Positions 12,239 through 33,600 of a DNA stretch of 34,863 nt are shown in pieces. Source of the stretch: Lachnospiraceae bacterium (GTDB lineage: Bacteria > Bacillota > Clostridia > Lachnospirales > Lachnospiraceae). The translations under genes were made by a program, and so were the position numbers. Location of the stretch: the NCBI GenBank assembly GCA_910575605.1, contig CAJTEW010000012.1, positions 67,501 through 102,363 on the forward strand, written 5' to 3'. The notes beneath the pieces are model-generated. The model did not search any database. It was not told the origin of the DNA and saw only the letters and a program-made list of their open reading frames with translations. Each line of letters begins with the position of its first letter. Within the stretch, counting starts at the first letter, position 1.

Positions 12239-12424
12239 AGGATTCTGAGAATTTTTAAAAATTTCAGGGTAAAACATAGCAGACAGCTTGTTGTTTCTCC
12301 TTGTGCATAGCTGATTTATAAATAATATATATAAATGACTTGATTTATAGAAAATGTGCAAATAATACAAAAATCAACAAGCTGATTGTCGAATCTAAAC
12401 GATGTAAAGGATAAACAAACATAT

Positions 12425-12430
12425 TATAAT
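12425..12430 (+). promoter_or_regulatory. -10 box of the SsuB-like transporter operon
   Basis: A consensus TATAAT lies 60 nt before the ATPase gene. The best -35 candidate (TGTAAA, 12403-12408, 16-bp spacer) matches only three positions, so an activator may be needed. The downstream PucR-type proteins are possible candidates. Confidence 0.45.
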
Positions 12431-12490: not shown

Positions 12491-13273
12491 ATGAGTTATA
12501 TAGAAGTAAAAGATGTATCATTCTCTTATACGGATGACGAAAGACTTGTCTTAAAGGATATCAGCCTCAATGTAGAAAAAGGGGAATTCGTGTGTCTTTT
12601 AGGTCAGTCGGGATGCGGCAAAAGCACATTCCTGCGGCTGCTGGCCGGACTTGAATGGCCGGCAAAGGGCGTGATTAATGTAGATGGGAAGTTAATTACA
12701 AAGGCAGGTTTGGACAGAGGCGTAGTTTTTCAGGATTACGGCCTGTTTCCGTGGATGACTGCCGGTGAAAATATTGTACTGGCATTGACCCAGAAATTTC
12801 CAAATAAGGATAAAAGACAACTAAAAGAAACAGCTGTTAAGATGCTTCAGGCAGTGGGACTGGATGAAAGTATTATGAAAAAATATCCGAAAGCGCTGTC
12901 AGGAGGAATGAAGCAGAGATGTGCGATTGCAAGAGCATTTGGCATAGATCCACCAGTGCTTTTGATGGATGAGCCGTTTGGAGCTCTTGATGCAGTAACC
13001 CGTGCAAAGCTTCAGGATTTATTGCTTAACCTCTGGTCGAGGGATAAGGAGAAGAAAACTGTATTTTTTGTCACGCATGACGTAGATGAGGCAATACTTC
13101 TTGCAAATAGAATCTGTGTCCTGGGTCAGTCGCCCAGCAATATTATATATGAATGCAGGATTCCAGAAGAACAGCGCCCTGCAAGAGACACACAATTTGA
13201 GGATGTGAACGTTCTAAAGCTGCGCAATGAATTGATTAGAAATATTAACAGGGATGTGAAGTCTCGTATTTAA
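12491..13273 (+). CDS. ABC transporter ATPase, nitrate/sulfonate/taurine type (SsuB/TauB-like)
   Basis: The 260-aa ATPase subunit shows Walker A GQSGCGKS (38-45), the Q loop QDYGLFPW (81-88) with the FPW typical of SsuB/TauB/NrtD proteins, signature LSGGM (136-140), Walker B LLMDEP (157-162) and the switch histidine in FVTHD. It would energise import through the permease at 14459. It is the first gene of the cluster ATPase - binding protein - permease - enolase-superfamily enzyme. The actual ligand cannot be inferred, since this transporter class carries many compounds besides sulfonates. Confidence 0.95.
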   Translation: MSYIEVKDVSFSYTDDERLVLKDISLNVEKGEFVCLLGQSGCGKSTFLRLLAGLEWPAKGVINVDGKLITKAGLDRGVVFQDYGLFPWMTAGENIVLALTQKFPNKDKRQLKETAVKMLQAVGLDESIMKKYPKALSGGMKQRCAIARAFGIDPPVLLMDEPFGALDAVTRAKLQDLLLNLWSRDKEKKTVFFVTHDVDEAILLANRICVLGQSPSNIIYECRIPEEQRPARDTQFEDVNVLKLRNELIRNINRDVKSRI

Positions 13274-13331
13274 GGCAATAATAGGCACGAAGGTCTATTT
13301 GCAAATAAAGGATAAAAGGAGAATTAGTATT

Positions 13332-14462
13332 ATGAAAAGAAGAGTACTATCATTACTGCTTGTCATGATGATGACATTCAGTCTTGCTGCATGCGGCAGT
13401 TCACCTGCAGATGGAGCAGGAAAGGATGAAGGCGCAGAAACAAAAGAAGAACAGAAGCCGGAAGAGGAAGTGACAACAGGTGCTGAGAAACCGGAAGTAT
13501 CTGAAATCCACTGGGCACGTGCTAACAGCGGCAACATACTGGTAACGATTGCAAGAGAAAAAGGCTATCTTGATGAGGCAGGACTTACAGTTATTGAAGA
13601 CCCGATGGCGTCATCTTCTGACGCTTTAACGGCTCTTGAAACAGGTGCAGTTGATGTTACATCCAATCAGGGAACAAATAATCCTCTGCAGTTTATTAGT
13701 ACAGGCTCTGACTTTACGATTGTAGGCGGATACATGTTGAAAGGAATGTATCTGGTAGCGGAGAAAGGAACAGGATTTAATGGTGTTGAGGATTTTGTGG
13801 GGAAAAAGATTGCCTATGCAGGTGTACATCCGGTAGTAGGAATGGCAATGCTTGATGCAGATATTGATCCCACGGATGAGAAGAACGTAGAGTGGCTTAC
13901 ATATTCTACCAATAGTGACCGTCTGGCAGCAGTAGCGGCAGGAGAAGCAGACTATGCAGTATTAAGCGGTGACCAGTTATTTGCAGTTGGAAACAACCCG
14001 GATTTGGAAATTACATGTTGGTTAGATGATCTGGTACCTAATTATGGATGCTGCCGTATGAACATGAAGACAGAATTTGTAGAGAAAAATCCGGTAACAG
14101 TAAAGCTGCTTTTGAAATGCCTTATTCGTGCAGAGCAGTATTACCGGGCAAATACAGAGGAATGTGTTTCTATTCTTGCGAAGGATATTGATGCAGATGA
14201 AGACTACGTTGCAGCATATCTTCTAAATGAAAATTATATTTCCAGTGTTGATCCTTGTAAGCAGGCAGTTGTAAAGACCTGGGACGGCATGATTAAAATG
14301 GGATTTATTGATGAGGCAGACATCGAAAATATTAATATTGAGGACCATATTAATGTTGATTTATATAAAAAAGCATTAGATGAGTGCGTCACAGAATACC
14401 GCGATGAAGACCCGGAGTTCTATGACGGACGGGTTGAATTCTTTGAGGCCAATAATCAATGA
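13332..14462 (+). CDS. ABC transporter substrate-binding lipoprotein (NMT1/SsuA-like)
   Basis: The 376-aa lipoprotein has signal peptide MKRRVLSLLLVMMM, lipobox LAAC and lipidated cysteine at residue 21, then an acidic low-complexity linker. The mature domain resembles NMT1/THI5-like periplasmic binding proteins (IAREKGYLDEAGL, then ALETGAVDVTSNQ). I chose ATG 13332 because AAGGAG lies about 10 nt upstream and the signal peptide starts there. The frame is open for 11 more codons to a TTG at 13299 without a ribosome binding site. The stop overlaps the permease start. Confidence 0.93.
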   Translation: MKRRVLSLLLVMMMTFSLAACGSSPADGAGKDEGAETKEEQKPEEEVTTGAEKPEVSEIHWARANSGNILVTIAREKGYLDEAGLTVIEDPMASSSDALTALETGAVDVTSNQGTNNPLQFISTGSDFTIVGGYMLKGMYLVAEKGTGFNGVEDFVGKKIAYAGVHPVVGMAMLDADIDPTDEKNVEWLTYSTNSDRLAAVAAGEADYAVLSGDQLFAVGNNPDLEITCWLDDLVPNYGCCRMNMKTEFVEKNPVTVKLLLKCLIRAEQYYRANTEECVSILAKDIDADEDYVAAYLLNENYISSVDPCKQAVVKTWDGMIKMGFIDEADIENINIEDHINVDLYKKALDECVTEYRDEDPEFYDGRVEFFEANNQ

Positions 14463-15220
14463 GTAAAATAGCACAATTTGTAAAAACGTACTGGATTACA
14501 GTCTGCATTTATATTGCCATGTTTTTAGGCTATAAATATATTTCAGATAACAAATTGTTTGGCGGCTTCTTGTTTCCATCAGTGGAAAAAATTGGGATTT
14601 CATTTAAAGAAAATGCAGGGACACTGTTTATGAACATGTTGTATTCCTTTCAGCTGATGATTCCATCTATTTTTACTGCGGCAGTAATTGCAATTGGGTT
14701 AGGTACAGTTCTAGGCATGCATACTCATATCAGAAAAGTGGTACATCCGGTAATTTATTCGGTAAGTGTGATTCCGTCCATTCTTATGTCTCCCTTTGCA
14801 CTGCTTCTGGCACCCAATTTCAGAGCGGCATCCATGTTTCTTGTTGTATATAACACTATATGGGCCACTCTGTTTGCCACAATCAATGGAATTATGACGA
14901 TTGACAAGAGGTATTTAGACAATGCGGCAACACTGGAGCTTAATCCCTTTCATAAATTGTTTAAGGTTATTATGCCGGCAGCCTCCCCTTCTATTTTATC
15001 GGGATTTGTTACTTCTCTTAGAGGCTCCTTTGTTGTACTGGTTTATGCTGAAATGTATGGTGCGAAATATGGCATGGGCTTTTATGTTAAGAAATATGCA
15101 GAATATGGACTATATGCAGAAGCGTGGAGCGGATTTATTTTTATGGTTGTTGTTCTTGTGATTGTGATGCAGATTTTTGAAAGAATAAAGAACTATATGT
15201 TAAAATGGACCATTAATTGA
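14459..15220 (+). CDS. ABC transporter permease (SsuC/TauC-like)
   Basis: The 253-aa protein has five to six membrane helices and a recognisable EAA-type cytoplasmic loop (LDNAATLELNPFHKLFKVIMP) after the fourth helix. The start ATG overlaps the binding-protein stop by 4 nt, so translation is coupled. It makes up the membrane channel, probably as a homodimer as in SsuABC. The following enolase-superfamily gene is only 26 nt away, which ties the transported compound to that enzyme. Confidence 0.92.
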   Translation: MSKIAQFVKTYWITVCIYIAMFLGYKYISDNKLFGGFLFPSVEKIGISFKENAGTLFMNMLYSFQLMIPSIFTAAVIAIGLGTVLGMHTHIRKVVHPVIYSVSVIPSILMSPFALLLAPNFRAASMFLVVYNTIWATLFATINGIMTIDKRYLDNAATLELNPFHKLFKVIMPAASPSILSGFVTSLRGSFVVLVYAEMYGAKYGMGFYVKKYAEYGLYAEAWSGFIFMVVVLVIVMQIFERIKNYMLKWTIN

Positions 15221-15246: not shown

Positions 15247-16428
15247 ATGAAGATAACAAAAATAGATGTAATGTTAGTTGATGTAAAGCCAGAGGATAAT
15301 CCCGGGTGGACTCCGGTTATATGTCGTATCTATACGGATGAAGGAATTTACGGGGATGGAGAGGCAGCTATGGCATACGGTAGCGGATCGACAGGTGCCT
15401 ACGGGGCGCTTCAAGATTTTGCAAAGAAGATTATTGGGATGGATCCGTTGGAGCATGAGGTTATCTGGGAATTTTTATACAAATCCACATTTTGGTGTCA
15501 GAATGGCGGGCCGGTGGTATTTTCGGCCATGTCAGCAATCGATGTAGCACTTTGGGATATCAAAGGAAAATATTTTCAGGTTCCGGTTTACCGGCTGCTT
15601 GGAGGAAAGATGCGAGATAAGCTGCGCTGTTATGCAAGCCAGCTTCAATTTGGATGGGGAGAAAAAAAGATTCCGGCACTTAGCACTGAAGACTATGTAG
15701 AAAATGCAAAAAAAGCAGTGGCGGAAGGATATGATGCAATTAAAATTGATTTCTTTACCTTTTCACCGGAAGGAAGAAGATTTAACAGCGAAGACACAAC
15801 AAGGCTGCTTTTACCCAAATATGTAAACATGATAGTGGACAGAGTGGCAGCAGTAAGAGAAGCAATAGGCCCGGACGTAGATATTATTATGGAAAACCAC
15901 TCCTATATTGATGCACAGGGAGCAGTTCAATTAGGTGAACGCGTAAAGCCTTATGGGATTTTCTGCTATGAGGAGCCATGTACACCGAGTCCCAGGGTGA
16001 ATAAATTTGTCTGTGATAAACTGAATATGCCAATCGCACAGGGAGAGCGTATTTATACAAGGTGGCAGTATGCCCAGTATTTTGAAAATAATTCTATTCA
16101 GATGATTCAGCCTGATATCGGAAACTGCGGCGGTATTACAGAGACAAAGAAGGTGTGTGACCTTGCACATATTTATGATGTAGGCGTACAGATACATGTA
16201 TGCTCCAGCCCCCTTTTAACAGCGGCCTCTCTTCAGCTGGAATCCGCAATACCGAATTTCACAATTCATGAGCATCATGTCTATAACCGTTATGATTATA
16301 ATAAACGGCTTTGTAAATATGATTACCAGCCGGTAAACGGGTATATGACAGTTCCAGAGTATCCAGGAATTGGAAATGAATTCAGCGATTATGTATTTGA
16401 AGTAAGTACATGTGTAACAGTTGAGTAA
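15247..16428 (+). CDS. Enolase-superfamily (mandelate racemase/muconate lactonizing) enzyme, probable acid-sugar dehydratase
   Basis: The 393-aa protein is normal length for the MR/MLE group. These enzymes use Mg2+ to abstract the proton alpha to a carboxylate, most often in acid-sugar dehydration. An N-terminal capping domain (1-130) precedes the barrel. Candidate catalytic residues are K166/D168 (IKIDFF), metal ligands E216 (MENHS), E242 or E243 (CYEEP) and E267 (QGER), and the Asp-His dyad D290 (QPDIG) and H317 (IHVCSSP). Replacement of the usual second Lys of KxK by Asp is notable and resembles sugar-acid dehydratase subgroups rather than racemases. CTGGAG precedes ATG. The substrate is presumably brought in by the upstream ABC importer. 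Confidence 0.88.
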   Translation: MKITKIDVMLVDVKPEDNPGWTPVICRIYTDEGIYGDGEAAMAYGSGSTGAYGALQDFAKKIIGMDPLEHEVIWEFLYKSTFWCQNGGPVVFSAMSAIDVALWDIKGKYFQVPVYRLLGGKMRDKLRCYASQLQFGWGEKKIPALSTEDYVENAKKAVAEGYDAIKIDFFTFSPEGRRFNSEDTTRLLLPKYVNMIVDRVAAVREAIGPDVDIIMENHSYIDAQGAVQLGERVKPYGIFCYEEPCTPSPRVNKFVCDKLNMPIAQGERIYTRWQYAQYFENNSIQMIQPDIGNCGGITETKKVCDLAHIYDVGVQIHVCSSPLLTAASLQLESAIPNFTIHEHHVYNRYDYNKRLCKYDYQPVNGYMTVPEYPGIGNEFSDYVFEVSTCVTVE

Positions 16429-16486: not shown

Positions 16487-16515
16487 TTGACAGATGTAAT
16501 GTTTTAAGAAATAAT
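16487..16515 (+). promoter_or_regulatory. Promoter of the PucR / DCCP-fusion operon
   Basis: A perfect TTGACA (16487-16492) and AATAAT (16510-16515) are spaced 17 bp. The start codon follows about 24 nt after the -10 box, so the leader is very short. A near-consensus promoter suggests steady expression of the two regulators independent of the upstream operon. Confidence 0.7.
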
Positions 16516-16538
16516 ATCCATAACTGGAGTGTGTGGAT

Positions 16539-17660
16539 ATGTATAATATTGATGTCTGTTATAAATTTATATTTGGTTCCATGTTCGAAGAAATGGTTTT
16601 GGATGATATTGCACAGAAGGTGTATGAATATACAAGAGCAGGTGTATTTTTTGTGTCGTGTTCCGGTGAAATTCTGGCGTATTCCTGTGGAAAGGAAGAA
16701 AGAAAGGCATGTTCCTTAAAGAAAGGCTGTCTTACGTTTGAGGATTATAAGAGGATTTTCGATGATACAGTATCAGGTAAAAATCAGAATCTGATATTTC
16801 CGGTATACCACTTAAAGAGAGTATTGGGATATGTTGTTCTGACTCATATTAATACGGAACAGCAGACTTTTTTTCGTGAGCTGGGAAGAATTCTTGTACA
16901 GATAAGCCAGGAATTTTTTGAGGAAAAGGGAAAAAATACATTTTTTCATCTGCCTCTTAAGGAGCAGGTAATATGCAGGACAATTTTTGCGGAAAAGCAG
17001 TGTCACAAAATCCTGGCAGATATTTTAGAAGGAAACTACATAATTATCATTTTTCCCAAGGAAGATATTATACAGAAAATAGATTATTTAACAATAAACC
17101 AGGCATGGAAGCATTTATACGTATATGAGGAAGAGGCATATATTACTGCAGTCCTATATAAAGTAAATGACCAAAAAGCGCAGGATGTATATAACAGGAT
17201 TGCAAATATAAATTTATCATGCTGTATAAGTGAAATGTTTGGAGATCTAGATGTATGCAGGGCAAAGCAGGATTTTCTCAAGCATATCATGTCCATACGG
17301 CGGCAGGAAGATGTGGGGATGAAACGTGAGAAAGACTGGTATATGGAAGGACTTTTTGCATATACCAGTCCTTTAATAAAGGATGCAGGCTTAAATGACT
17401 ATTCTATTTCATGCCTCATAGAAGAAGACAAGAAGAATAATACGGAATTTTATCATACATTAAAAATGTACTTGTTGTGTGAAAATAATATAACAATAGC
17501 AGCAAAGAAGCTGTATATTCACAGGAACACAATGGTATACAGGCTGAAACAGATTAAGTCATGTATAGGGCTGGACTTTAATGATGGTGACATTTCGAGA
17601 GGATTGCTGGCATTTATGATGATGCATGATGCCGCAGAGGGACAGGGAAATAAACAATGA
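16539..17660 (+). CDS. PucR-family transcriptional regulator
   Basis: The 373-aa regulator has an N-terminal sensor-like domain (VYEYTRAGVFFVSCSGEILAY, near 27-47) and a C-terminal PucR-type helix-turn-helix at about 316-345 (ITIAAKKLYIHRNTMVYRLKQI). It has no membrane segment. I chose ATG 16539, 8 nt after GGAG. A GTG two codons upstream is too close to that site. The stop overlaps the next start (ATGA). The sensor part is laid out like the C-terminal half of the following fusion protein, suggesting the pair arose by duplication or works as a hetero-complex. Likely targets are the importer-dehydratase operon or its own operon (inference). Confidence 0.88.
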   Translation: MYNIDVCYKFIFGSMFEEMVLDDIAQKVYEYTRAGVFFVSCSGEILAYSCGKEERKACSLKKGCLTFEDYKRIFDDTVSGKNQNLIFPVYHLKRVLGYVVLTHINTEQQTFFRELGRILVQISQEFFEEKGKNTFFHLPLKEQVICRTIFAEKQCHKILADILEGNYIIIIFPKEDIIQKIDYLTINQAWKHLYVYEEEAYITAVLYKVNDQKAQDVYNRIANINLSCCISEMFGDLDVCRAKQDFLKHIMSIRRQEDVGMKREKDWYMEGLFAYTSPLIKDAGLNDYSISCLIEEDKKNNTEFYHTLKMYLLCENNITIAAKKLYIHRNTMVYRLKQIKSCIGLDFNDGDISRGLLAFMMMHDAAEGQGNKQ

Positions 17661-19810
17661 AGCTAATACAGGATCTGCCTGAAATATTTGAGGAGTTTAA
17701 AGAGAAGAGAAGGCAGGCATTTTTAGAAATAAAGGAGTATAAGGATAAAGGAAATCCTGTTGTAGGAATGTATTGTGCATATTTTCCTACAGAACTGGCA
17801 ATGGCAGTTGGAGCGATTCCTGTAGGGCTGTGCTCCTTTGCAAATGAGACAGTTTCAGCGGCAGAACGAGAACTGCCTAAAAGTATGTGTCCGCTGGTAA
17901 AATCCAGCTATGGCTTTGCAGTAGAGGATAAATGCCCTTTTTTTCATTTTGCAGATTTGGTAATAGGAGAGACAACTTGCGATGGAAAGAAAAAAATGTA
18001 CGAGCTTATGGCGGAATTTAAGCCAGTTTTTGTTATGGAGCTGCCAAACAGCCAGTCCGGGAAAGGGATAGAATTCTGGAAACAGGAGGTCCTGCGCACC
18101 AAGGAATTTTTTGAAGAATTTTTCCATGTTGTTATTACTGATAGAATGATTCGTGAAGCTGTACACATTAGTAATGAGATTCGCACATCTCTAAAAAAAC
18201 TGTACGAGGTCATGAAACTGAATCCAGCGCCGGTACTGGGCGGTGATATACAGAAGATCGTAACAGGCTCAAAATACCGTTTTGATTTTCAGACAACGCC
18301 AGAGGTTGTAGACGCTGTAACGGCAAAAATTCTAGAGGAGTATGACAAGGGGAAAATGCTTGAATACAGACCCAGAATACTTGTAACGGGGTGCCCAATT
18401 GGCGGAGACAGTATGAAAATCATCCATGAAATTGAAAATAACGGCGGTGTAGTAGTTGCAGTGGAAAACTGCAGCGGAGTCAAGACTCTGGATCAGATGA
18501 TTGATGAGGAGGAAGAGGATATCTACGGGGCGATTGCCAGACGCTACCTGTCAACAGGATGTTCTATTATGACGCCTAATGACAACCGTATTGAGCTTTT
18601 AGGAAGGATTATAGATGAATACCAGGTAGACGGAGTTGTGGAAATGGTTTTAACAGGCTGTCATGCAACCGGTGCAGAGTCTATTTACATCAGAAAGTTT
18701 GTAAATAAAGAAAAAGGAATTCCCTATATAGCGATTGACACAGATTATTCTCCGGCAGATAAGGGGCAGATTGCCACAAGGTTATCTGCTTTTATTGAAA
18801 TGATACAGGTACAAGACGATGAACTGGATATGAACTACTGCTATAAAATTGTGCTGTCTGGACTGACGAGGGGAGATTCAATAAATCATATTGTGAAAAA
18901 AGTTCGGGATTATACAAAAATTCCTATCTGTATATATGACCAGCGGGGCAGAAAAATACCGGATGATTTGTATATAAATAAGACAGATATAAAATCAGAG
19001 AGGATAATTGAAAAGGTACTTGAAGGAAATTGTGGGAAAATTGTGGCATTTATTCCACCGGAAAAGCGCCGGACAAATGTATTAGAGATACTCGATATAC
19101 TGGCAAAAAGCTATGAGCTTAGAGAAAGGTCCTTCTGCGTGCAGAAGTTAAAGGCACAGCAGGATACTCCTGATTTTCTATGGGTTTTGTCCGAAAGCAC
19201 ACAGGCATTGAAAGCCATATATAAGGGAGCTTCGGAGATCCAGGCAGAGATGCCTTGTCTGGTACTGCATGATGATAAAAGTATCTTTGTATCCTGCGTG
19301 CAAGGAAAGGATGGCAGAGAGAAATTTATCCGGTTATGTGAAAAGTATATGGAAAAAGTAGAAGGGTTTCTTTTGATAGGAAATGGCTTTTTTGATGTGC
19401 ACAACAAGGAAAATAATAAAGCCATGCAGTATGAGATTCTAAAAATCATTAAGAGAAATAAAATAAGAAAAAAGATATATTTAACAGAAAATTATTACTA
19501 CGAACTTGCAGCTGCTCATATAAGTAAAATGACGGAAAAGGGTATTCGTTACCAAAATGATTTAGAGTGCATTAAAAGAGAGGATGAAGAAAAAGGGAAA
19601 AATCTGTATGAAACATTATATTGGTATCTTAAAATGAAACGGAATATTTCCCAAACGGCGGCGAGCCTTAAGATTCACAGGAATACTCTACTGCCTCGAA
19701 TAGCAAGAATTAATGAACTGATAGCTCTGGATGAAAAGGACGGCGCAGAGTGTGAAAAGCTTTTTCTTACAATGGAGGTGGGACTGCTTGGGGTGAATAG
19801 AATATTGTGA
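17657..19810 (+). CDS. Fusion: HgdB/double-cubane-cluster reductase domain + PucR-type regulator
   Basis: The 717-aa protein has two parts. Residues 1-395 look like the 2-hydroxyacyl-CoA dehydratase D-component family, specifically the stand-alone double-cubane-cluster proteins (YjiM/DCCP type), which use an ATP-driven electron donor for difficult reductions. Conserved cysteines are at 40, 59, 78, 93, 108, 246, 272, 302 and 335, with contexts such as CAYFPTELAMAVGAIP, TCDGKKK and TGCHATGAES. Residues about 400-717 resemble a PucR regulator: sensor segment DYTKIPICIYDQRGRKI and a C-terminal helix-turn-helix at 661-690 (ISQTAASLKIHRNTLLPRI). The frame is continuous and the start overlaps the upstream stop by 4 nt. 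No HgdC-type activator ATPase is present in the window. A redox- or substrate-sensing transcription factor is the simplest reading. Confidence 0.85.
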   Translation: MKLIQDLPEIFEEFKEKRRQAFLEIKEYKDKGNPVVGMYCAYFPTELAMAVGAIPVGLCSFANETVSAAERELPKSMCPLVKSSYGFAVEDKCPFFHFADLVIGETTCDGKKKMYELMAEFKPVFVMELPNSQSGKGIEFWKQEVLRTKEFFEEFFHVVITDRMIREAVHISNEIRTSLKKLYEVMKLNPAPVLGGDIQKIVTGSKYRFDFQTTPEVVDAVTAKILEEYDKGKMLEYRPRILVTGCPIGGDSMKIIHEIENNGGVVVAVENCSGVKTLDQMIDEEEEDIYGAIARRYLSTGCSIMTPNDNRIELLGRIIDEYQVDGVVEMVLTGCHATGAESIYIRKFVNKEKGIPYIAIDTDYSPADKGQIATRLSAFIEMIQVQDDELDMNYCYKIVLSGLTRGDSINHIVKKVRDYTKIPICIYDQRGRKIPDDLYINKTDIKSERIIEKVLEGNCGKIVAFIPPEKRRTNVLEILDILAKSYELRERSFCVQKLKAQQDTPDFLWVLSESTQALKAIYKGASEIQAEMPCLVLHDDKSIFVSCVQGKDGREKFIRLCEKYMEKVEGFLLIGNGFFDVHNKENNKAMQYEILKIIKRNKIRKKIYLTENYYYELAAAHISKMTEKGIRYQNDLECIKREDEEKGKNLYETLYWYLKMKRNISQTAASLKIHRNTLLPRIARINELIALDEKDGAECEKLFLTMEVGLLGVNRIL

Positions 19811-19998: not shown

Positions 19999-20394
19999 TT
20001 TTATAAAACCATTCCGAAAGACCTGGAAGATGCGGCACGGATTGACGGCTGTTCCAGGCTGAGAGCTTTTATTCAGGTCGTAATCCCAATTTCTGGTCCT
20101 GGATTTGTGGCAGTCGGAGTTTTAGTATTTTTAATGTCATGGGATGAGTTTATGTATTCCTTACTGCTTATTACCTCTCAAAGTAATAAGACTATACCTG
20201 TTGCTATTTCCGAATTTTCTAGTCAGTTTGGTGTAGATTATGGAATGATGATAACAGGAGGATGCATTGCAACAGTTATCCCTCTGGCACTTGCACTGAT
20301 ATTCCAGAAATGGATATCTATGGGGCTGACCTCTGGAGCAGTAAAAAAGGGATATGAATCTGCGAAAAAAGGTGTAACAGTAAAAATGGTATGA
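19999..20394 (+). pseudogene. MalG-type sugar permease, C-terminal half only
   Basis: The frame TTT-TAT-AAA from 19999 encodes FYKTIPKDLEDAARIDGCSR, an EAA loop of a CUT1 permease, then the last two or three membrane helices, ending at TGA 20394. No start codon or ribosome binding site precedes it, and the N-terminal ~150 residues are absent. An internal GTG at 20107 would skip the EAA loop. No binding protein, partner permease or ATPase remains nearby. This is the tail of a deleted sugar-transport operon. Confidence 0.85.
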
Positions 20395-20429
20395 TATAAT
20401 TATAATACTGAATAAGTAGATTATATCAT
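20391..20429. promoter_or_regulatory. Inverted repeat before the lacI remnant
   Basis: ATGATATAAT (20391-20400) and ATTATATCAT (20420-20429) are perfect 10-bp inverted repeats with a 19-bp gap that contains TATAAT. They overlap the stop of the permease fragment. There is no T run, so a terminator is unlikely. An old autoregulatory operator is possible. Confidence 0.35.
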
Positions 20430-20449
20430 AGAACAAAGGGATGAAAAGT

Positions 20450-20928
20450 ATGGCTAATGTTCGAGAAGTTGCATAAAAAGCAAATGTTTCTGTAGCAACA
20501 GTGTCCAGAGTGTTGGATAACAGCCCGCGTGTTCGGGAAGATACAAGAAAAACGGTATTAACTGCAATAGAAGAATTAGAATACATAGTGCCCAGACAGC
20601 ATAAAGAAGATAAAGAAACTAGGCTGATAAAGGTTCTGGCTCTTCTTCCAGATGTGGAAAATCTGTTTTATTCGGCCATTGCAGAGGGAATCTGTGATAT
20701 GGCCAGAAAGAAAAATTGCATGGTATTGCTTTGTACAACAGCCAGTGAATATGAAAATGAACAAAAATTTTTGCAGATGCTTTCCCTAAATCTTGCAGAC
20801 GGAGCTATTTTATGTTCTTCTGTTATGGAGCGGGAAGAACTTCGAGAGCTAAACCAAAAATACCCTTTAATACAATGGTGTGAACATAAAGAGAAACTAG
20901 AGTGTGTTCCCAATGTCACTAAGTTAAG
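20450..20928 (+). pseudogene. LacI-family repressor, in-frame stop and C-terminal truncation
   Basis: ATG 20450 starts MANVREVA, then TAA at 20474, then KANVSVATVSRVLDNSPRV: an interrupted but otherwise textbook LacI helix-turn-helix. The reading continues through the hinge and the first ~100 residues of the sugar-binding domain (VLALLPDVENLFYSAIAEGI, EYENEQKF), then stops making sense near 20920, where an unrelated gene tail begins. Both lesions together make function very unlikely, though re-initiation at GTG 20501 would give a protein without most of the DNA-binding domain. Confidence 0.88.
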
Positions 20929-21144
20929 ATTAATTCTTTTGTTTCAGTTGGTCATGGAGATGTGGATTTTGATGGGATTATCAGAGAGCTGAACCAGATG
21001 GGATATGACGGCCCGCTGTCTGTTGAGTGGGAGGACTCGGGAATGGATCGTAAAATCGGAGCAAAAGAGTCTTGTGAATATGTAAGACGTTACAATTTTA
21101 ATCCATCGGGGACTGCATTTGATTCATCATTAAAAATGGGGTAG
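20929..21144 (+). pseudogene. Sugar-phosphate isomerase/epimerase, C-terminal fragment
   Basis: The frame leading into VGHGDVDFDGIIRELNQMG and GPLSVEWEDSGMD is the C-terminal end of an IolE/xylose-isomerase-like TIM-barrel protein, with the His and Glu metal-site region of that family. About 70 of roughly 300 residues survive, and no start signal exists. It joins the truncated lacI directly at about 20920, so a deletion removed the sequence between. Together with the permease fragment it marks a lost sugar-utilisation locus. Confidence 0.8.
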
Positions 21145-21310: not shown

Positions 21311-21991
21311 ATGCAGTACGAGTGTTTAATTATAGATGACGAGCAGCTTCTTGCGGACAGCACAGCAGAATATTTTAACTTATTTGGTGTGAAAACAGCT
21401 GCTGTATACAGAGCATCTGCGTGCAGGGAATTTTTAAAAGAGCATACAGTCAGGCTTCTGCTTTTAGACATTAACCTTGGAGATGGCAGTGGATTTGAGC
21501 TGTGTAAGGAGCTCCGAAGAAACACGGAGATTCCGATTCTGTTCATTTCTGCCCGTACAAGTGATGATGATAAGATTATCGCGCTTAATATCGGAGGGGA
21601 TGACTATATACAGAAGCCTTATTCATTAGGTGTGCTTCTTGCGAAAGTGAAGGTAATGCTGAAGCGTTTCGGCCAGGCCTGCAGCGACAAGTTTTCCGAT
21701 GGCCGGCTGACTGTTGACTTTCAGGCAAAGCAGGTATTTGTGGACGGGAAAGAGGTACGGCTGACAGCACTTGAATTTAAACTTCTGTCCTGTCTTATGA
21801 GGCATGAAAACAAGGTACTGTCAAAGCAGGAGCTGTTTGAAGAGGTATGGGAGGATAAGTTTACCGGTGACGGAACACTTAATGTGCATATCCGTAAAAT
21901 CAGGGAAGCGATTGAGAGAATTCCCGGGAAGCCGGAGTATATTGTCACCGTCTGGGGGGATGGCTATAGATTCTGCGGGGGAAGGCAATGA
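21311..21991 (+). CDS. OmpR/PhoB-family response regulator
   Basis: The 226-aa protein has a receiver domain with acidic pocket D9/D10, phosphoacceptor D53 (LLDINL) and K102 (QKP), and a C-terminal winged-helix domain (LTALEFKLLSCLMRHENKVLS, GDGYRF end). Its stop overlaps the kinase start by 4 nt. It probably regulates the downstream ABC operon. Four TAAGG-like repeats at 23251-23293 are a plausible binding site. Confidence 0.95.
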   Translation: MQYECLIIDDEQLLADSTAEYFNLFGVKTAAVYRASACREFLKEHTVRLLLLDINLGDGSGFELCKELRRNTEIPILFISARTSDDDKIIALNIGGDDYIQKPYSLGVLLAKVKVMLKRFGQACSDKFSDGRLTVDFQAKQVFVDGKEVRLTALEFKLLSCLMRHENKVLSKQELFEEVWEDKFTGDGTLNVHIRKIREAIERIPGKPEYIVTVWGDGYRFCGGRQ

Positions 21992-23253
21992 AAAAACGAA
22001 CATTTTTAGTTAGCCTGCTATTTGTTTTTTTAGCTGAACTTATGGCTCTTATTCTTTTTGCCAATCATGATATTGATAATACGCAGGACGCAGTTCTTGT
22101 AAATGAAGCAGTTCAGTCTGTACGTATGGACTGGGACAATATGGAGAACCACAGAAACCAGACGCTTCTTGATTATGCTGTACTTGACGTGGACGGGTCT
22201 GTGCTGTTTAAGTCAAAGTCAGATTTAAGTGAAAGTATAAACGAGGCTGTCATCCACAGGGATACTATTCTTGATATCCAGGTGGATGACTTAGTCGTGG
22301 GCAAAATTATTATTTATAATGAAAGTGCAAGGCAGCTTTGGCGCTGGAAGCAGGGGATGATTTTCATAATACTTGCGGGCAGCCTTATGCAGTGTGGAAT
22401 CTGTGCAGGGTATTATGTCTATTTAAACAGTAGTATTATAAAGCCATTTCAAGAATTAAAGGGATTTGCAGAACGTATCGCAGGCGGAAATCTGGATACT
22501 CCTATGGAGATGGACCGGCATAACATCTTTGGTGCTTTTACAGAGAGCTTTGACATTATGCGTTCGGAGCTTAAAAAGTCGAGAAAAGCAGAGGCTAAGG
22601 CCAATGCAGATAAAAGGGAGCTTGTAGCAAAGCTTTCCCATGATATCAAGACACCTGTGGCAAGCATTAAGGCAGCTTCCGAAGTGGGAGCAGCGCTTAC
22701 AGATAATGAAAAGCAGAAGGATAATTATGTACAGATTATCCGCAAGGCTGACCAGATAAATACATTGATTACTAATTTGTTCACAGCAGCACTGGAGGAG
22801 CTCAAACAGCTTTCTGTGGCACCGAAGGATATGGAGAGCAGAGAGATAAAGACATTGCTTATAAATGCCGACTACCTCAGGAGGACAGAAGTTCCTGATA
22901 TACCAGAGTGTATAATATATATAGATAAGCTCCGCCTGCAGCAGGTCTTTGACAATATTTTTGCAAATTCCTATAAATATGCGGGTACAAATATTATGAC
23001 AGAAATATATTTAGATAATAAACGGCTTGCAATTAGTATTGAGGATTACGGGGGAGGCATAGACAGAGATGAGGTGCTGATTATAAAAGAAAAATACCGA
23101 CGGGGAAGTAATGTAAAAGATGTGGAAGGAGCTGGGCTTGGACTTTATATCTCTGATTATTTTATGAGGGAAATGAAAGGGGAACTGATTGTGGAAAATG
23201 GGAAAAATGGCCTGAAGGCTACGGTGATGATTTTGCTTAGCGGGGAGATTTAA
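21988..23253 (+). CDS. Membrane sensor histidine kinase
   Basis: The 421-aa kinase has two membrane helices (about 5-25 and 122-145) enclosing a ~95-residue extracytoplasmic domain, a HAMP-like linker (150-200), the H box LSHDIKTP with H218, the N box NIFANSYKYA and the G boxes DYGGGI and GAGLGLYI. It is a full-length sensor rather than the short 'intramembrane' type of BceS kinases. It is coupled by a 4-nt overlap to its regulator and followed by an ABC exporter, a pairing seen in peptide-sensing and detoxification modules. Confidence 0.94.
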   Translation: MKKRTFLVSLLFVFLAELMALILFANHDIDNTQDAVLVNEAVQSVRMDWDNMENHRNQTLLDYAVLDVDGSVLFKSKSDLSESINEAVIHRDTILDIQVDDLVVGKIIIYNESARQLWRWKQGMIFIILAGSLMQCGICAGYYVYLNSSIIKPFQELKGFAERIAGGNLDTPMEMDRHNIFGAFTESFDIMRSELKKSRKAEAKANADKRELVAKLSHDIKTPVASIKAASEVGAALTDNEKQKDNYVQIIRKADQINTLITNLFTAALEELKQLSVAPKDMESREIKTLLINADYLRRTEVPDIPECIIYIDKLRLQQVFDNIFANSYKYAGTNIMTEIYLDNKRLAISIEDYGGGIDRDEVLIIKEKYRRGSNVKDVEGAGLGLYISDYFMREMKGELIVENGKNGLKATVMILLSGEI

Positions 23254-23293
23254 GGAATATTTAAGGATTGCATAAAGGCATTTAAGATTTGAG
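23251..23293 (+). promoter_or_regulatory. Candidate response-regulator binding repeats
   Basis: TAAGG begins at 23251 and 23262 (11-bp step), TAAAGG at 23273 and TAAGA at 23283. Direct repeats with about 11-bp phasing are the usual target of OmpR-family dimers. They overlap the kinase stop codon and lie about 60 nt before the ATPase start. No strong -35/-10 pair follows, which fits an activated promoter. Confidence 0.4.
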
Positions 23294-23350
23294 AAGGTAA
23301 CATAGAAGGTGCAGACAAGATTACAGGTAATAGTAAATGGGAGGCCTGAC

Positions 23351-24109
23351 ATGAAAAATATATTGTTAAAAACCAATAATTTAAGTAAATCCTTCTCAAG
23401 CGGAGGTGCTTTGCAGCATGTATTGAAAAATATTGATTTGGAGCTATATGAGGGGGATTTTACTGTTATTATGGGAGCAAGCGGAGCGGGAAAATCCACA
23501 CTTCTCTATGCTCTTTCGGGGATGGATACGCCGTCTCTTGGCACGATTACTTTTGGAAATACAGTGATTTCTGATTTGAACCAGGATGCTCTTTCAGTAT
23601 TCAGGCGCAGCCACTGCGGTTTTGTTTTCCAGCAGATTTATCTAATAGAGGGCATGTCTGTGATGGATAATATTCTGGCGGCAGGACTGCTTGTGAGTAA
23701 GGACAAAAAGGAGCTTTGTGAGAGAGCCGGGGAGCTGTTTAAAGCAGTAGACATTTCCGAAGAGACACAGAGGAAATTTCCGGCTCAGATATCCGGAGGG
23801 GAGGCACAGCGGGCGGGAATCGTCCGGGCACTTATTAACTGTCCCGAGATTCTGTTTGCCGATGAGCCTACAGGGGCGCTTAATTCGAAAACAGGGCTTG
23901 ATGTTTTAAACACGCTTACAGGCTTCAACGAGCAAGGGCAGAGCGTGGTTATGGTTACACATGATATGCGTTCAGCAAGGCGGGGAAACCGTGTGTTGTA
24001 TTTAAAGGACGGTGTGATTCTGGGAGAATGTGATTTGGGGAAATATGTGCACGGTGATGTAAGGAGGCATGAGAAGCTTTCTGCCTTTCTTAGGGAAATG
24101 GGGTGGTAG
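23351..24109 (+). CDS. ABC transporter ATPase (MacB/LolD/BceA class)
   Basis: The 252-aa ATPase has Walker A GASGAGKS, the Q loop FQQIYL, signature SGGEAQRAG, Walker B ILFADEPTGALN and switch VTHD. The EPTGAL form is characteristic of the class that works with FtsX-type permeases. I chose ATG 23351, which follows GGGAGG by 6 nt. The open frame extends to a GTG at 23309 without a ribosome binding site. It ends one base before the permease start. Confidence 0.95.
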   Translation: MKNILLKTNNLSKSFSSGGALQHVLKNIDLELYEGDFTVIMGASGAGKSTLLYALSGMDTPSLGTITFGNTVISDLNQDALSVFRRSHCGFVFQQIYLIEGMSVMDNILAAGLLVSKDKKELCERAGELFKAVDISEETQRKFPAQISGGEAQRAGIVRALINCPEILFADEPTGALNSKTGLDVLNTLTGFNEQGQSVVMVTHDMRSARRGNRVLYLKDGVILGECDLGKYVHGDVRRHEKLSAFLREMGW

Positions 24110-24110
24110 T

Positions 24111-26447
24111 ATGAGAAAAGGTATTCTTCTTGTACACTCTAATGTGCGCAGGGCAAAGGGGCAGACAGCAGCTATTATTGTGCTTATTTTTCTTTCGGCA
24201 GTTATGTTGAACCTGTGGCTTATGCTGTCAATGGACTATAAGCAGAATTTTGAGCGCAGCCATACAAGGCTTAACGAGGGCCATGTTACCCTTATAGCTG
24301 ATGCTGATGACAGTGAGACGAAGGATTTCCTGAAGGAGACAATAAAAAACGACAGACGAACAGCAGAATTCAGTATTGATTCTTGTATGCATATGGTTGG
24401 ACTATTTGAATTTAACGGAGGTGAGGTTAACTCAGAGTTTGTTTTTCTTAAAAAGGAGGAGGCTGTTTCCCGTCCTGTAGGAAGAATAGAGATTGTAGAG
24501 GACAGCGGACTGGATAGCGGAATCTATATGCCTGTTCTGTATAAATCGGACGATATAGCAATTGGGAAGACAATTTATATTTCGATTGGAAGCAAAAAAA
24601 TGCCGTATAAGGTATGCGGTTTTTTCAACAGTATGATGGCCGGGTCACATAACTGCGGAATGTGTGGGATTATTTTGACGGAGGACAAATACGAGGAATT
24701 AAAAGAAAAGGGCTATGTGCAGCAGGCGGCCTTATGTTCTGTCCGTCTTGAAGATAAATCAGATAGTGAGGATTATGAAGCAATGCTCAAGAATGCCATA
24801 TCTTCTGCCTGGCCTGCGGTCCGTATGAAAAGCAATTCTTATGCTCTTGTTTCCAGCTCAAGATATATTTCCCAGATGATTTGTTCGGGAATTATGAGCG
24901 CAATGGCTTTTTTTATTCTTCTTATTGCCCTTGTTGTGATAGCATCAAATATTATGAATTATATTCAGGAAAATATGAAAAATCTTGGAGCTCTTAAGGC
25001 GGTGGGGTATACAGGGCGGCAGCTTACCGGGGTCCTTCTTCTGCAGTTTTCCGGGCTTTCCATGATAGCTGCCGTAGCAGGTGCAGGTATTTCTTATACG
25101 CTGTTTCCGGCAGTAAATGAGATGATGACTTCCCAGACAGGTATTCCGTATAGAATTCGGTTCCTGCCGGTTCCATTTTTACTGACAGTTGGAATATTGG
25201 GCGGGGCAGTTTCACTAGCTGTATGGATGTCCTCAGGGAGACTTAGGAAGGTAGAGCCGATTGCTGCTTTAAGACAGGGAGTTCAGACCCATAATTTCAA
25301 ACGGAACCATATTCCCCTTGAGAAAACAAAGGCCCCGCTGAATTTTGCCCTCGCTCTGAAAACTACATTTTCTGGTGTCAGGCATAATGTGACAGTATGT
25401 ATCACCATGCTGGTGCTTTCTCTTATTGTCGTATTTTCCGGACTTATGGTGGAAAATATGATTGCGGATGTGATGCCGTTTTTGAACCTGATTGTAGGGG
25501 AGACAGCAGACAGCTGTATAAATGTAAATGCACAGGCAGAGGAAGCATTTTTAAAAAGAATGAAGGAGGATGACCGTGTAAAGGATAACTATCTTTATCA
25601 TTCTATAGAAGTAAGGCATGTGGATGGTGTCGCACTGGTGGCGACCCTTGCAGATGATTTTTCACAGGTAAATAATCAGAATGTGGTATTTGAAGGCAGG
25701 TTCCCCCAATATGAAAATGAAATCGCCGTTGCTGCAAAGTACGCTGGAGAGAAGAAGCTTAAGGTGGGGCAGGAGGTTACGATAACAGCAGAGGGAAAAC
25801 AGGCTGATTATATTATATCAGGTTTTACGCAGATAACAAATAATCTGGGCAAAGACTGTCTGATGACGAGGGAAGGCTATGAGCGTCTTGGAAAGCTTCA
25901 GAATATGAGCTATTACCTGAACCTTAAGGACGGTACGGATATAGATACATTTAATTCAGATATAAAAGAATGGTTTGAAAATGATATAAATGCTTCGATA
26001 AATGTTGACGCGACAATCGAGGGGGCGGCATCTGTTTATATATCGCTTATGACGGTTATTGTGGCAGCAGTTCTTGTTCTCAGCTTGATTATTATTGCTT
26101 TTGTACTGTACCTGCTTGTGCGCACAATGCTGGGAAATAAAAAGAGGGAGTATGGAATTATGAAGGCACTGGGTTATACAACAAGACAGCTTATCCTGCA
26201 GACGGCTCTGTCCTTTATGCCTGCGGTTATTATCTCGACGATTACCGGGATTACAGTGTGCAGCTTTATTATTAACCCGCTGACAGCTGTATTTTTAAAG
26301 AATATTGGAATCGTGAAATGTACATTTACAGTCCCTATTATGTTTAATATATTGGCTGGAGGGGGACTTATACTGTCGGCGTTTGTGATTTTGTGCCTGA
26401 TGTCGGTCAGGATTAGAAAGGTACAGCCAAGAGAACTGATGGGATAA
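24111..26447 (+). CDS. FtsX-type ABC transporter permease
   Basis: The 778-aa membrane protein has two FtsX-like halves. A first helix near 20-40 is followed by a ~220-residue extracytoplasmic domain and three helices (about 265-385), then a second repeat with a helix near 430-450, another large outer domain and three C-terminal helices. Motifs NLGALKAVGYTGRQL and GIMKALGYTTRQL are the matching coupling segments of the two halves. ATG 24111 follows the ATPase stop by one base. With the ATPase it probably moves peptides, lipids or lipoproteins, or acts mechanically rather than as a pump. The substrate is unknown. Confidence 0.93.
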   Translation: MRKGILLVHSNVRRAKGQTAAIIVLIFLSAVMLNLWLMLSMDYKQNFERSHTRLNEGHVTLIADADDSETKDFLKETIKNDRRTAEFSIDSCMHMVGLFEFNGGEVNSEFVFLKKEEAVSRPVGRIEIVEDSGLDSGIYMPVLYKSDDIAIGKTIYISIGSKKMPYKVCGFFNSMMAGSHNCGMCGIILTEDKYEELKEKGYVQQAALCSVRLEDKSDSEDYEAMLKNAISSAWPAVRMKSNSYALVSSSRYISQMICSGIMSAMAFFILLIALVVIASNIMNYIQENMKNLGALKAVGYTGRQLTGVLLLQFSGLSMIAAVAGAGISYTLFPAVNEMMTSQTGIPYRIRFLPVPFLLTVGILGGAVSLAVWMSSGRLRKVEPIAALRQGVQTHNFKRNHIPLEKTKAPLNFALALKTTFSGVRHNVTVCITMLVLSLIVVFSGLMVENMIADVMPFLNLIVGETADSCINVNAQAEEAFLKRMKEDDRVKDNYLYHSIEVRHVDGVALVATLADDFSQVNNQNVVFEGRFPQYENEIAVAAKYAGEKKLKVGQEVTITAEGKQADYIISGFTQITNNLGKDCLMTREGYERLGKLQNMSYYLNLKDGTDIDTFNSDIKEWFENDINASINVDATIEGAASVYISLMTVIVAAVLVLSLIIIAFVLYLLVRTMLGNKKREYGIMKALGYTTRQLILQTALSFMPAVIISTITGITVCSFIINPLTAVFLKNIGIVKCTFTVPIMFNILAGGGLILSAFVILCLMSVRIRKVQPRELMG

Positions 26448-28405: not shown

Positions 28406-29068
28406 ATGATAAAGATTTTGCTTGTAGAGGACGATGATACAATTGCATTTGGAATCCGTTCTGCACTTAAAAGAACGGGCTTTGAGGTAATGAGCTGTAT
28501 GAGTATGACAGAAGGCAGAAAGATGTTTTCTGAGGATATCTCACTTGTTCTTCTTGACCTTAATCTTCCTGACGGAAGCGGTTATGAATTCTGCAGATGG
28601 GTAAAGGAAAGAAGAGATACACCAATCATTTTCCTGACGGTGCTAGATGATGTGGCAGATATAACGAAGGGGCTTGACATGGGTGCAGATGACTATATAA
28701 CGAAGCCTTTTTCCATTCCAGTATTGGAATCCAGAATCCGGGCAGTCATTAGAAGGATATCTAAAACAGAGGAAGATATACTCTCGTGCAGTACCATCCA
28801 GATGGATAAGAAGAGGATAAAGGTAAGCGTGTGCAAGGAAGCAATCAGCCTTACCAGTCTTGAGTACCGTCTTTTGCTAATCCTGATGGAAAATAAAGGG
28901 TGTATACTGCCCCGCAGCCTTATTCTTAAGAAGCTGTGGGATGATGAAAGTAATTTTGTAAACGATAATACACTTACGGTTGCTATGAAGAGGCTCAGGG
29001 AAAAGCTTAAAGATGCTCCCTGCATCAAAACAGTTAGAGGAATCGGCTACCGGATGGAGGATATATAA
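28406..29068 (+). CDS. OmpR/PhoB-family response regulator
   Basis: The 220-aa protein has a receiver domain with D9/D10, phosphoacceptor D51 (LLDLNLPDG) and K100 (TKPF), then a winged-helix DNA-binding domain ending GIGYRMEDI. AAGGAG lies 10 nt upstream. An ATG four bases earlier is out of frame. The stop overlaps the kinase start (TAATG). Its likely target is the convergent ABC operon, where tandem 11-bp repeats lie at 33666-33687. Confidence 0.95.
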   Translation: MIKILLVEDDDTIAFGIRSALKRTGFEVMSCMSMTEGRKMFSEDISLVLLDLNLPDGSGYEFCRWVKERRDTPIIFLTVLDDVADITKGLDMGADDYITKPFSIPVLESRIRAVIRRISKTEEDILSCSTIQMDKKRIKVSVCKEAISLTSLEYRLLLILMENKGCILPRSLILKKLWDDESNFVNDNTLTVAMKRLREKLKDAPCIKTVRGIGYRMEDI

Positions 29069-30249
29069 TGAATACAGGAAAGAGGGCAGCAGTACATTTT
29101 ATACTATGGCTGTGTCTGGGCGCAGCCGCCGGAATTTTTCTGGCGGCTGTTTTAAGTATCCATGAATATAATACACTGTCAGATATTACGGGCTCTGTTA
29201 TGCAGTCGAAATCGCTTTCGGCGGGGATTAAAAATGGAGCGGACAGGTTCAGAGAGGATGGGGAGGCCTTTCTTAAGGATTATGGATATGGCCCTATGAG
29301 AAACTGGGAAAAATATCTGCCATATACGATGCTTATCAGTATTCTTCTTTTCCAATCAGCAGGCTTTATTATATTTGGAAAGCAGTATATAGAAATACGG
29401 AACCGAAAGAAAAGGATTCAGGGGCTGACAGAATACTTAAGACATATAAATTCTGGGGACGCCGCAGTACTCTGCCGGAATGAAGATGAATTTTCCCATT
29501 TGGAGGATGAGATATATAAAACAGTTATTAAGCTTCAGGGGACAAAGGAGGCGGCAGTCACGAACCATGAGATTCTGTCAGAACGGATTGCGGACATTGC
29601 CCATCAGCTTAAGACGCCGCTTACCTCTATGTCTCTCATGACAGAGCTTTTGGAAGAATATCAGACCAGTGATACAAGAGAATATTACACAAGGCTTTCG
29701 AATCAGATAGATAGACTTAAGAACCTGGTGTCCGGGCTTTTGGCATTGGCAAAGCTTGATTCCCACGGGATTGTACTTAAAGAAGAAAGACTGGAGATAT
29801 CAGAGCTTTTGGAGGCGTCTTTAGAGCCGCTTAAGGGAATGATGGAGGAAAAGGGAATTTTTCTGGCGGCAGGGGGCGGACTATCGTCTGATAAGGTATG
29901 CTGTATATATGCGGACCGTCAGTGGACAGAGGAAGCGCTTTTAAATATTTTGAAAAACTGTGTGGAGCATACTCCAAAGGGCGGAAGAATAACAGTCTTT
30001 TACGGACAGAACCCTATTTTTACAGAGCTTAGGATAGAAGATAGCGGAGGTGGGTTTTGCCCTGGGGATCTGCCTCATATTTTTGAGCGTTTCTACCGGG
30101 GCGCGGGGACGGCGAAGGATAATGCTGGGATTGGACTGGCCCTTGCAAAGGCGGTTATCGAACAGCAAAACGGGCAGATCCATGCAGAGAATACTACAGA
30201 TGGACACGCCCGTTTCCAGATTAAATGGTATCATCCTTTATTGTACTGA
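29068..30249 (+). CDS. Membrane sensor histidine kinase
   Basis: The 393-aa kinase has two membrane helices (about 8-30 and 84-103) around a short ~50-residue outer loop, the H box DIAHQLKTP with H179, the N box ILKNCVEHTP and G boxes DSGGGF and GIGLALAKA. The small sensor domain is closer to VanS/BceS-like kinases that sense together with a transporter. Its last 29 bases overlap the 3' end of the convergent permease gene. Confidence 0.94.
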   Translation: MNTGKRAAVHFILWLCLGAAAGIFLAAVLSIHEYNTLSDITGSVMQSKSLSAGIKNGADRFREDGEAFLKDYGYGPMRNWEKYLPYTMLISILLFQSAGFIIFGKQYIEIRNRKKRIQGLTEYLRHINSGDAAVLCRNEDEFSHLEDEIYKTVIKLQGTKEAAVTNHEILSERIADIAHQLKTPLTSMSLMTELLEEYQTSDTREYYTRLSNQIDRLKNLVSGLLALAKLDSHGIVLKEERLEISELLEASLEPLKGMMEEKGIFLAAGGGLSSDKVCCIYADRQWTEEALLNILKNCVEHTPKGGRITVFYGQNPIFTELRIEDSGGGFCPGDLPHIFERFYRGAGTAKDNAGIGLALAKAVIEQQNGQIHAENTTDGHARFQIKWYHPLLY

Positions 30250-32920: not shown

Positions 32921-33600
32921 TAGTCAGTCACCTCGTCGGATAAAATTTTACCATCCTCCAGTGTGATAATACGATCTGCCATTAATGCAGTTTTCTCATT
33001 ATGTGTAATCAGAAGAATGGTCTGATTGTATTGTTTGTTGGAAAGCCTTAGAAGATTTAGGGTTTCATCAGAGTTTTTTCTGTCCAGGTTGCCGGTAGGT
33101 TCATCTGCCAGAAGGATAGCAGGCTGGTAAATCAGACTTCTGGCAATGGCGGCGCGCTGCTGCTGTCCGCCGGACAGCTCTCTTGGATAATGGGACAGCC
33201 GGTCGGAAATCCCCAAAGTTCTCACAAGCTTTTCAAATCGTGCTTCGTCTGGTTTTTCCCCGTCTAAGAGGATAGGAAGTAGTATATTTTTCCGTACATT
33301 TAAGGTGGGAATCAGATTATAAAATTGGTAGACAAGGCCTACCTTTCTGCGTCGAAAGACAGCGAGCTGTTCTAAGCTGAGGGTGGAGATGTCAGTATCT
33401 TCTATATAAATGCTGCCCTCTGTGGGACGGTCTACTCCTCCAAGCATGTGAAGAAGAGTGGACTTGCCGGAGCCGGAGGCACCTACTACGGCGGTGAAGC
33501 TTCCTCGTTCTATCGAGAGGCTTATGTGGTCAAGAGCTATAATCTGGTTTGTACCTTTGCCATAGGTTTTTGTGAGATTCTGACATTTAAGTATTTCCAT
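32920..33600 (-). CDS. ABC transporter ATPase (MacB/LolD/BceA class)
   Basis: The 226-aa ATPase has Walker A GASGSGKS, Q loop YQFYNLIP, signature LSGGQQQRAAIA, Walker B ILLADEPTGNLD and switch ITHNE, in which asparagine replaces the more common aspartate after the histidine. EPTGNLD is typical of the class paired with FtsX permeases. AAAGGAA precedes ATG on the reverse strand. It is first in its operon, with tandem repeats just upstream. Confidence 0.95.
   Translation of the reverse strand: MEILKCQNLTKTYGKGTNQIIALDHISLSIERGSFTAVVGASGSGKSTLLHMLGGVDRPTEGSIYIEDTDISTLSLEQLAVFRRRKVGLVYQFYNLIPTLNVRKNILLPILLDGEKPDEARFEKLVRTLGISDRLSHYPRELSGGQQQRAAIARSLIYQPAILLADEPTGNLDRKNSDETLNLLRLSNKQYNQTILLITHNEKTALMADRIITLEDGKILSDEVTD

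Follow-up and report, generated by a model that had tools for sequence, protein, structure and literature searches.

A double-cubane-cluster protein domain fused to a PucR-type regulator and a co-occurring operator-like element in a few Lachnospiraceae

In a 34,863-nucleotide stretch of DNA from a Lachnospiraceae bacterium (GenBank assembly GCA_910575605.1, contig CAJTEW010000012.1, positions 67,501 to 102,363 of the forward strand; referred to as the window), a single uninterrupted open reading frame (ORF) was found to encode a double-cubane-cluster protein (DCCP) domain fused to a PucR-type transcriptional regulator. The fusion and a conserved operator-like element located upstream of an uptake operon co-occur. 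Based on the results described below, it appears rather probable that the protein represents a PucR-type regulator using its DCCP domain as input module and acting at this element together with a partner, namely a second PucR-type regulator whose gene is located directly upstream and belongs to the finding. This arrangement seems to be a novel mode of gene control by an iron-sulfur cluster, present in a few Lachnospiraceae. Coordinates of all features are summarized in Table 1.

A sequence-only reading of the window had proposed that one 717-codon frame joins a complete HgdB/DCCP-like domain to a PucR-like regulator of about 310 residues with a C-terminal helix-turn-helix (HTH) domain. The single frame was borne out by the ORF and its translation, and profile searches detected both domains above cut-off in the full protein. 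Pfam HGD-D matched residues 40-383 (E 3.9e-109), and the NCBIfam model NF040772, 'double-cubane-cluster-containing anaerobic reductase', was matched over its full length (model positions 1-372 of 372; fusion residues 14-383; 492.3 bits, cut-off 350), confirming the completeness of the DCCP domain. The PucR-type HTH domain HTH_30 (PF13556) was recognized with 54.9 bits (cut-off 27, E 7.4e-15). Moreover, the predicted fold of the C-terminal half resembles PucR structures and the HTH domain is conserved; the regulator half comprises about 330 residues rather than 310. The GGDEF-like region deduced from the fold prediction gave no match to Pfam GGDEF_2. PucR regulators such as MabR (Rv2242) and BAD_0249, as described in the accessible part of PMC11617747, carry HTH_30 and a GGDEF-like domain, the latter predicted in the fusion, behind another N-terminal domain.

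All nine cysteines noted between residues 40 and 335 are present (C40, C59, C78, C93, C108, C246, C272, C302 and C335). For BzdN of benzoyl-CoA reductase (8S02), the accessible text of PMC11971306 gives Cys36, Cys73, Cys100, Cys263, Cys293 and Cys327 as ligands of the [8Fe-9S] cluster, and these align one-to-one with C40, C78, C108, C272, C302 and C335 of the fusion. Loss of the cluster cysteines in homologs was looked for; the six ligand equivalents are invariant in 136/136 distinct aligned DCCP domains, representing 8 fusions, 4 PucR-paired DCCPs, 111 other stand-alone DCCPs and a distant group of 13 that takes in the copy on contig 16 of the source genome (40 of 176 match segments had been removed as duplicates or short). 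C59 and C93 are likewise invariant, and C246 is found in 122 of the 136 domains; these three are kept in the family but are no counterparts of BzdN ligands. BzdN is 21% identical to the fusion and part of a catabolic heterodimer. The DCCP of Carboxydothermus hydrogenoformans with its reductase DCCP-R (PDB 6ENO/7YYL/7YZM) shows the same fold over the whole N-terminal half, with 35% identity and aligned cysteines. This DCCP is a stand-alone enzyme, whereas the fusion carries a regulator half.

A survey of other genomes revealed that the architecture recurs. Intact fusions were identified in eight genomes, namely the source genome (G000), G1090, G191, G350, G1091, G231, G1087 and G1089. A ninth, more divergent copy in G163 (L196:11264-13397, contig C71) is broken over two frames. 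In the genome sets screened, which are overlapping samples, full-length fusions were detected in 4/397 genomes of the family (at most two candidates scored per genome, E up to 1e-100), in 2/392 of the order set and in 1/391 of the class set (at most five), the matches in the latter two being already known. Furthermore, they were present in 4/6 genomes of the genus, in 1/1 and 2/3 of two further genera and in 1/61 relatives of G231; a member of the order set, G329, gave a partial PucR match only. Among the 80 relatives retained out of 253 in named genomes, one fusion (L041, the copy of G1090, from an uncultured Lachnospiraceae and 86% identical) and three PucR + DCCP gene pairs were found (L042, Mordavella massiliensis; L043, Merdimonas faecis; L044, an uncultured Lachnospiraceae). 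In relatives, PucR was sought with a custom HTH profile applied to at most 6 kb of flanking sequence, and at 9 of the 80 loci the ORF choice missed the DCCP gene, so that neighbours are less sure there. A missed stop or frameshift between residues 390 and 410 is excluded by eight copies with the same in-frame fusion and varying linker lengths, and since these intact orthologues fall into one clade, the fusion is no assembly error.

In a quick, midpoint-rooted DCCP tree with several long branches, the eight fusion DCCP halves form one clade (SH-aLRT 100), nested in a group of 13 (SH-aLRT 99) together with four paired DCCPs and L015; a single fusion event would fit this topology best. Fusions of one genus (G000 and G1090 versus G1087 and G1089) are split between two subclades that differ in operon type, suggesting transfer or replacement between genera. 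The partner PucR gene overlaps the fusion start as ATGA, and its orthologue was found directly upstream of 8/8 intact fusions, in G1090 split across two contig ends. Trees of the partner and the fusion agree where resolved (the G1090 partner was left out). Unfused pairs with PucR directly upstream of a stand-alone DCCP, near ABC transporter genes, were identified at L042, L043, L044, L142 and L143. Those at L042, L043, L044 and L142 are the nearest DCCP relatives of the fusion in the tree, consisting of two proteins instead of one, and unfused pairs possibly represent a two-protein version of the switch.

Changes in the fusions are concentrated around the cluster. The 111 stand-alone DCCPs share 105 positions with at least 93% conservation; eight of these positions are altered in the fusions, and six of the eight are located no more than three residues from a cluster ligand (hypergeometric P 7e-4, without correction for relatedness). 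At position 338, three residues after the last ligand, Tyr or Phe occurs in 123/123 domains outside the 13-member tree group and in 0/13 inside it, where Thr is found in 8/8 fusions, Asp or Val in 4/4 paired DCCPs and Val in L015 (G317). Since Tyr/Phe is lost across the whole group, unfused members included, the nearby pocket of the cluster is likely to have been altered prior to the fusion, in a lineage associated with PucR and transporters.

The partner PucR and the fusion are the last two genes of an uptake operon, of which two types were distinguished. Type I (source genome, G1090, G191) encodes a nitrate/sulfonate-like ABC transporter and an enolase-superfamily enzyme, and type II (G350, G1091, G231, G1087, G1089) a cystine/amino-acid-like ABC transporter and an M20 amidohydrolase, in 3/5 cases accompanied by a PatB-type C-S lyase. 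The transporter names rest on matches under the NCBIfam equivalog cut-offs, and the names M20 and PatB on matches above cut-off where checked (G350, for PatB also G1088). The 25-bp sequence ATAGAAAATGTGCRANNNNTACAAA is common to the upstream regions of six of these operons; it was defined on six fusion genomes, to which G1090 and G1091, each closely related to one of the six, were added. Exactly one perfect copy per genome was detected in 8/8 intact-fusion genomes, despite the two kinds of ABC transporter, and a perfect copy in 0/10 genomes without an intact fusion (G163, G1088, G306, G032, G329, G317, G323, G321, G232, G246). Among the latter, G163 carries the broken copy, G1088 and G306 are from the same genus, G032 is from the genus of G350, and G1088 and G329, featuring unfused PucR + DCCP pairs and no fusion, also lack the exact element. 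Matches with one or two mismatches were absent from all 18 genomes. In six genomes the perfect site and the fusion were retrieved on one stretch; in G1090 and G1091 the site precedes the corresponding operon genes on a different contig, the contigs breaking off within the partner PucR gene (G1090) and the M20 gene (G1091).

The element is part of a longer phylogenetic footprint, in which 34 of 66 columns are invariant compared with 6/61 before and 4/60 after it. Identity between type I and type II regions amounts to 0.63-0.70 in the footprint versus 0.36-0.51 in the flanks (six pairs). The putative operon promoter, with TATAAT just downstream of the footprint, was read from the sequence and lies outside the plus-strand matches of the consensus scan; TATAAT combined with a poor -35 box would be as expected of an activated promoter. 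For the regulator pair, a separate TTGACA-17-AATAAT promoter ranked first among 26 promoter-like matches found in 8.3 kb, a number of matches that shuffled sequences also give. It is exact in 6/8 loci (G000, G1090, G191, G231, G1087, G1089), shows one mismatch in G1091 and reads CATAAT with an 18-nt spacer in G350. At L122, L123, L138 and L139, a second ATAGAAAA half site was observed about 29-31 bp upstream of the core, which is possibly an additional binding site.

Table 1. Features of the fusion locus, given in window coordinates.
Feature	Position	Strand	Remarks
Operator-like core	12347..12371	+	ATAGAAAATGTGCRANNNNTACAAA, 25 bp; only exact site in genome
Phylogenetic footprint, ~66 bp	12347..12412	+	34/66 aligned columns invariant, 8 genomes
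Inferred operon promoter	12401..12430	+	poor -35 GATGTA 12401-12406, 18-nt spacer, TATAAT 12425-12430
ABC transporter ATPase (nitrate/sulfonate/taurine type)	12491..13273	+	first gene of presumed regulated operon
Substrate-binding protein, SsuA/NMT1-like	13299..14462	+	below NCBIfam cut-off
ABC transporter permease	14459..15220	+	
Enolase-superfamily enzyme (mandelate racemase / galactonate dehydratase-like)	15247..16428	+	
Sigma-70 type promoter upstream of regulator pair	16487..16515	+	TTGACA-17-AATAAT
Partner PucR-type regulator	16533..17660	+	375 aa; ATG at 16539 possible
Fusion ORF	17657..19810	+	717 aa, single uninterrupted frame
DCCP (HgdB/BzdN-like) domain	17657..18808	+	fusion residues 1-384; HGD-D and NF040772 matches
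GAF-like domain	18818..19156	+	residues ~388-500; fold prediction only; poorly conserved among orthologues
GGDEF-like (PucR-type) domain	19157..19576	+	residues ~501-640; fold prediction only
HTH_30 PucR-type DNA-binding domain	19604..19777	+	residues 650-707; Pfam match

The proposal of a transcription factor, made already in the sequence-only reading, thus gained ground in several respects: both domains are complete, the architecture and the HTH domain are conserved, the cluster cysteines are invariant, and the element follows the intact fusion (8/8 versus 0/10 genomes). What such a factor would read has to be worded more carefully. According to the proposed mechanism, basal expression from their own promoter would supply the fusion and the partner PucR, which would act, either as dimers or in mixed complexes, on the footprint ahead of the operon promoter. 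An [8Fe-9S] cluster would be housed in the DCCP half, which in the known enzyme forms a homodimer, and would be reduced by a BadF-type ATPase that also serves the stand-alone DCCPs of the cell. Substrate binding or reduction at the cluster, or its redox state, may then rearrange the GAF-like/GGDEF-like/HTH half and thereby affect activation at the promoter, so that the uptake operon would be switched on in response to a substrate or electron signal from the DCCP half. Several elements of this scheme are inferred, namely the assembly of the cluster, the sensory role of the DCCP domain, activation instead of repression, the PucR protein that binds the element and the substrate itself. Judging from the neighbouring genes, the imported compound is most likely sulfur-containing or amino-acid-like, perhaps an organosulfur or amino-acid derivative. 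The more specific idea that the double-cubane [8Fe-9S] cluster serves as sensory cofactor, with ATP-driven reduction by the shared activase or substrate turnover setting the promoter, is put forward tentatively.

Regarding electron supply, four HGD-D and three BcrAD_BadFG matches above cut-off were obtained for the source genome, among them, on contig 16 (G000:C16), an activase with a frame of 258 codons close to another DCCP. In 11/11 genomes (the eight with intact fusions, G163, and G1088 and G329 with pairs), an activase (254-277 codon frame) lies roughly 1.5 kb or less from a DCCP gene, making supply in trans by a BadF-type activase possible in each of them. In addition, a 1426-codon frame with two BcrAD_BadFG matches and a weak HGD-D match was observed at G000:C1 361959-365315, and similar long frames in 10/11 genomes.

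Several results weigh against a sensory DCCP domain acting at the element. The eight fusion genomes represent about four independent lineages (G000 and G1090; G191; G350 and G1091; G231, G1087 and G1089), the fold matches of the PucR half show high root-mean-square deviations, and an activase is located near the fusion in G191 only. Sixteen three-mismatch matches to ATAGAAAATGTGCRANNNNTACAAA were scattered over fused and unfused genomes, and a reversed control pattern gave 10. Furthermore, constraint on the DCCP half is similar to that on stand-alone DCCPs, as would also be expected if catalysis were retained; the true sensor could be the GAF-like domain, although no other part is less conserved; and the tie to the operator cannot separate the fusion from the partner PucR.

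Purifying selection acts on all parts of the fusion, both ends being held while the middle drifts. For three clearly unsaturated pairs, dN/dS values were 0.031/0.020/0.055 for the DCCP part, 0.206/0.089/0.219 for the middle and 0.036/0.007/0.144 for the HTH domain; nearer saturation (G231 with G1087 and G1089) they were 0.054/0.040, 0.078/0.137 and 0.000/0.032, respectively. The corresponding range for stand-alone DCCPs in the first three species pairs was 0.009-0.052. Across the eight fusions, 235/384 positions are invariant in the DCCP half, 9/113 in the GAF-like, 16/140 in the GGDEF-like and 31/70 in the HTH domain. The view that the protein is an enzyme only, with the PucR half as a relic and regulation by the partner PucR alone, could explain the operator tie, the partner being present wherever the fusion is; the constraint on the HTH domain and the retention of the PucR half in 8/8 intact copies make this very improbable. 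It also appears improbable, albeit to a lesser degree, that effector sensing resides in the GAF-like domain, with the DCCP half serving as a tethered enzyme or a scaffold for dimerisation and taking no part in sensing, considering the low number of invariant GAF-like positions compared with the DCCP half and the location of most differences from stand-alone DCCPs beside cluster ligands.

A bifunctional trigger enzyme, comparable to PutA, whose DCCP half performs an ATP-driven reduction of the imported compound while the PucR half reports or autoregulates, is regarded as unlikely, yet deserves more weight than the two preceding explanations. It is in line with the few conserved positions altered, the six ligands all kept, selection about as strong as on stand-alone DCCPs and an activase available in trans. 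Moreover, the unfused pair of G1088 (PucR, then a separate DCCP gene) has genes for a PatB C-S lyase and an ABC transporter next in line, the transporter being 43-69% identical to that of the source genome. The consensus promoter owned by the regulator pair differs from what is expected for a purely inducible catabolic enzyme. In G191 (L121:7927-12217), the fusion immediately precedes a stand-alone DCCP, which shares 57-60% identity with the DCCP domain of the source fusion, and a BadF-type activase, a complete DCCP system beside the regulator, so that a second enzyme could be redundant there. Irrespective of these rival explanations, the surroundings of unfused pairs resemble those of the fusions: besides the G1088 locus, at the L042/L143 locus PucR and DCCP genes occur with a MetQ-like ABC transporter and an MtaA/CmuA-like methyltransferase (below cut-offs).

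The sequence-only reading had known of no described regulator of this design, and none was found in open-access PMC full text (subscription papers being mostly outside): no PucR regulator with an N-terminal Fe-S enzyme domain and no paper naming '2-hydroxyacyl-CoA dehydratase' alongside PucR came up there. In the same corpus, double-cubane combined with transcriptional regulator fusion or helix-turn-helix retrieved only an isoprene-reductase paper (PMC10134865), whose text lacks PucR and whose accessible passages name no such regulator, and 'PucR family' with 'iron-sulfur cluster' only a Streptomyces genome and a Lactiplantibacillus transcriptome, as far as their accessible text goes. MocR, according to the accessible part of PMC5320631, shares the design of an enzyme-like domain as sensor of a transcription factor, but its PLP-type (aminotransferase-like) fold and GntR-type HTH domain are unrelated to the domains of the fusion. 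The physiological relevance of known DCCP reactions was called still unclear in 2025 in the accessible text of PMC11971306. The fusion, candidate operator and target operon tie one DCCP lineage to a concrete setting, namely uptake of sulfur- or amino-acid-type compounds, C-S lyase and amidohydrolase, and the fusion offers a reporter readout for the natural ligand of this lineage. If the cluster is indeed the sensory cofactor, the regulator would rely on an ATP-fed cluster of very low potential, a design of which open-access PMC yielded no report; unfused PucR + DCCP pairs would be two-protein versions of the same switch, and some stand-alone DCCPs would be signalling proteins and not metabolic enzymes.

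Elsewhere in the window, the region 1-1377 holds the 3' part of a 23S rRNA gene and a tRNA-Asn at 1306-1377; a second tRNA-Asn (2964-3036) was predicted by ARAGORN, without a report by Rfam at gathering score. Just 3' of the fusion (20107-20992), two short frames, one ABC sugar-permease-like and the other LacI-type (163 aa), look like gene remnants. Furthermore, two sets of genes presumably encoding a response regulator, sensor kinase, ABC ATPase and large permease are located at 21311-26447 and 28406-33600, which we take, from reading the ORFs, to be of the antimicrobial-peptide-sensing type.

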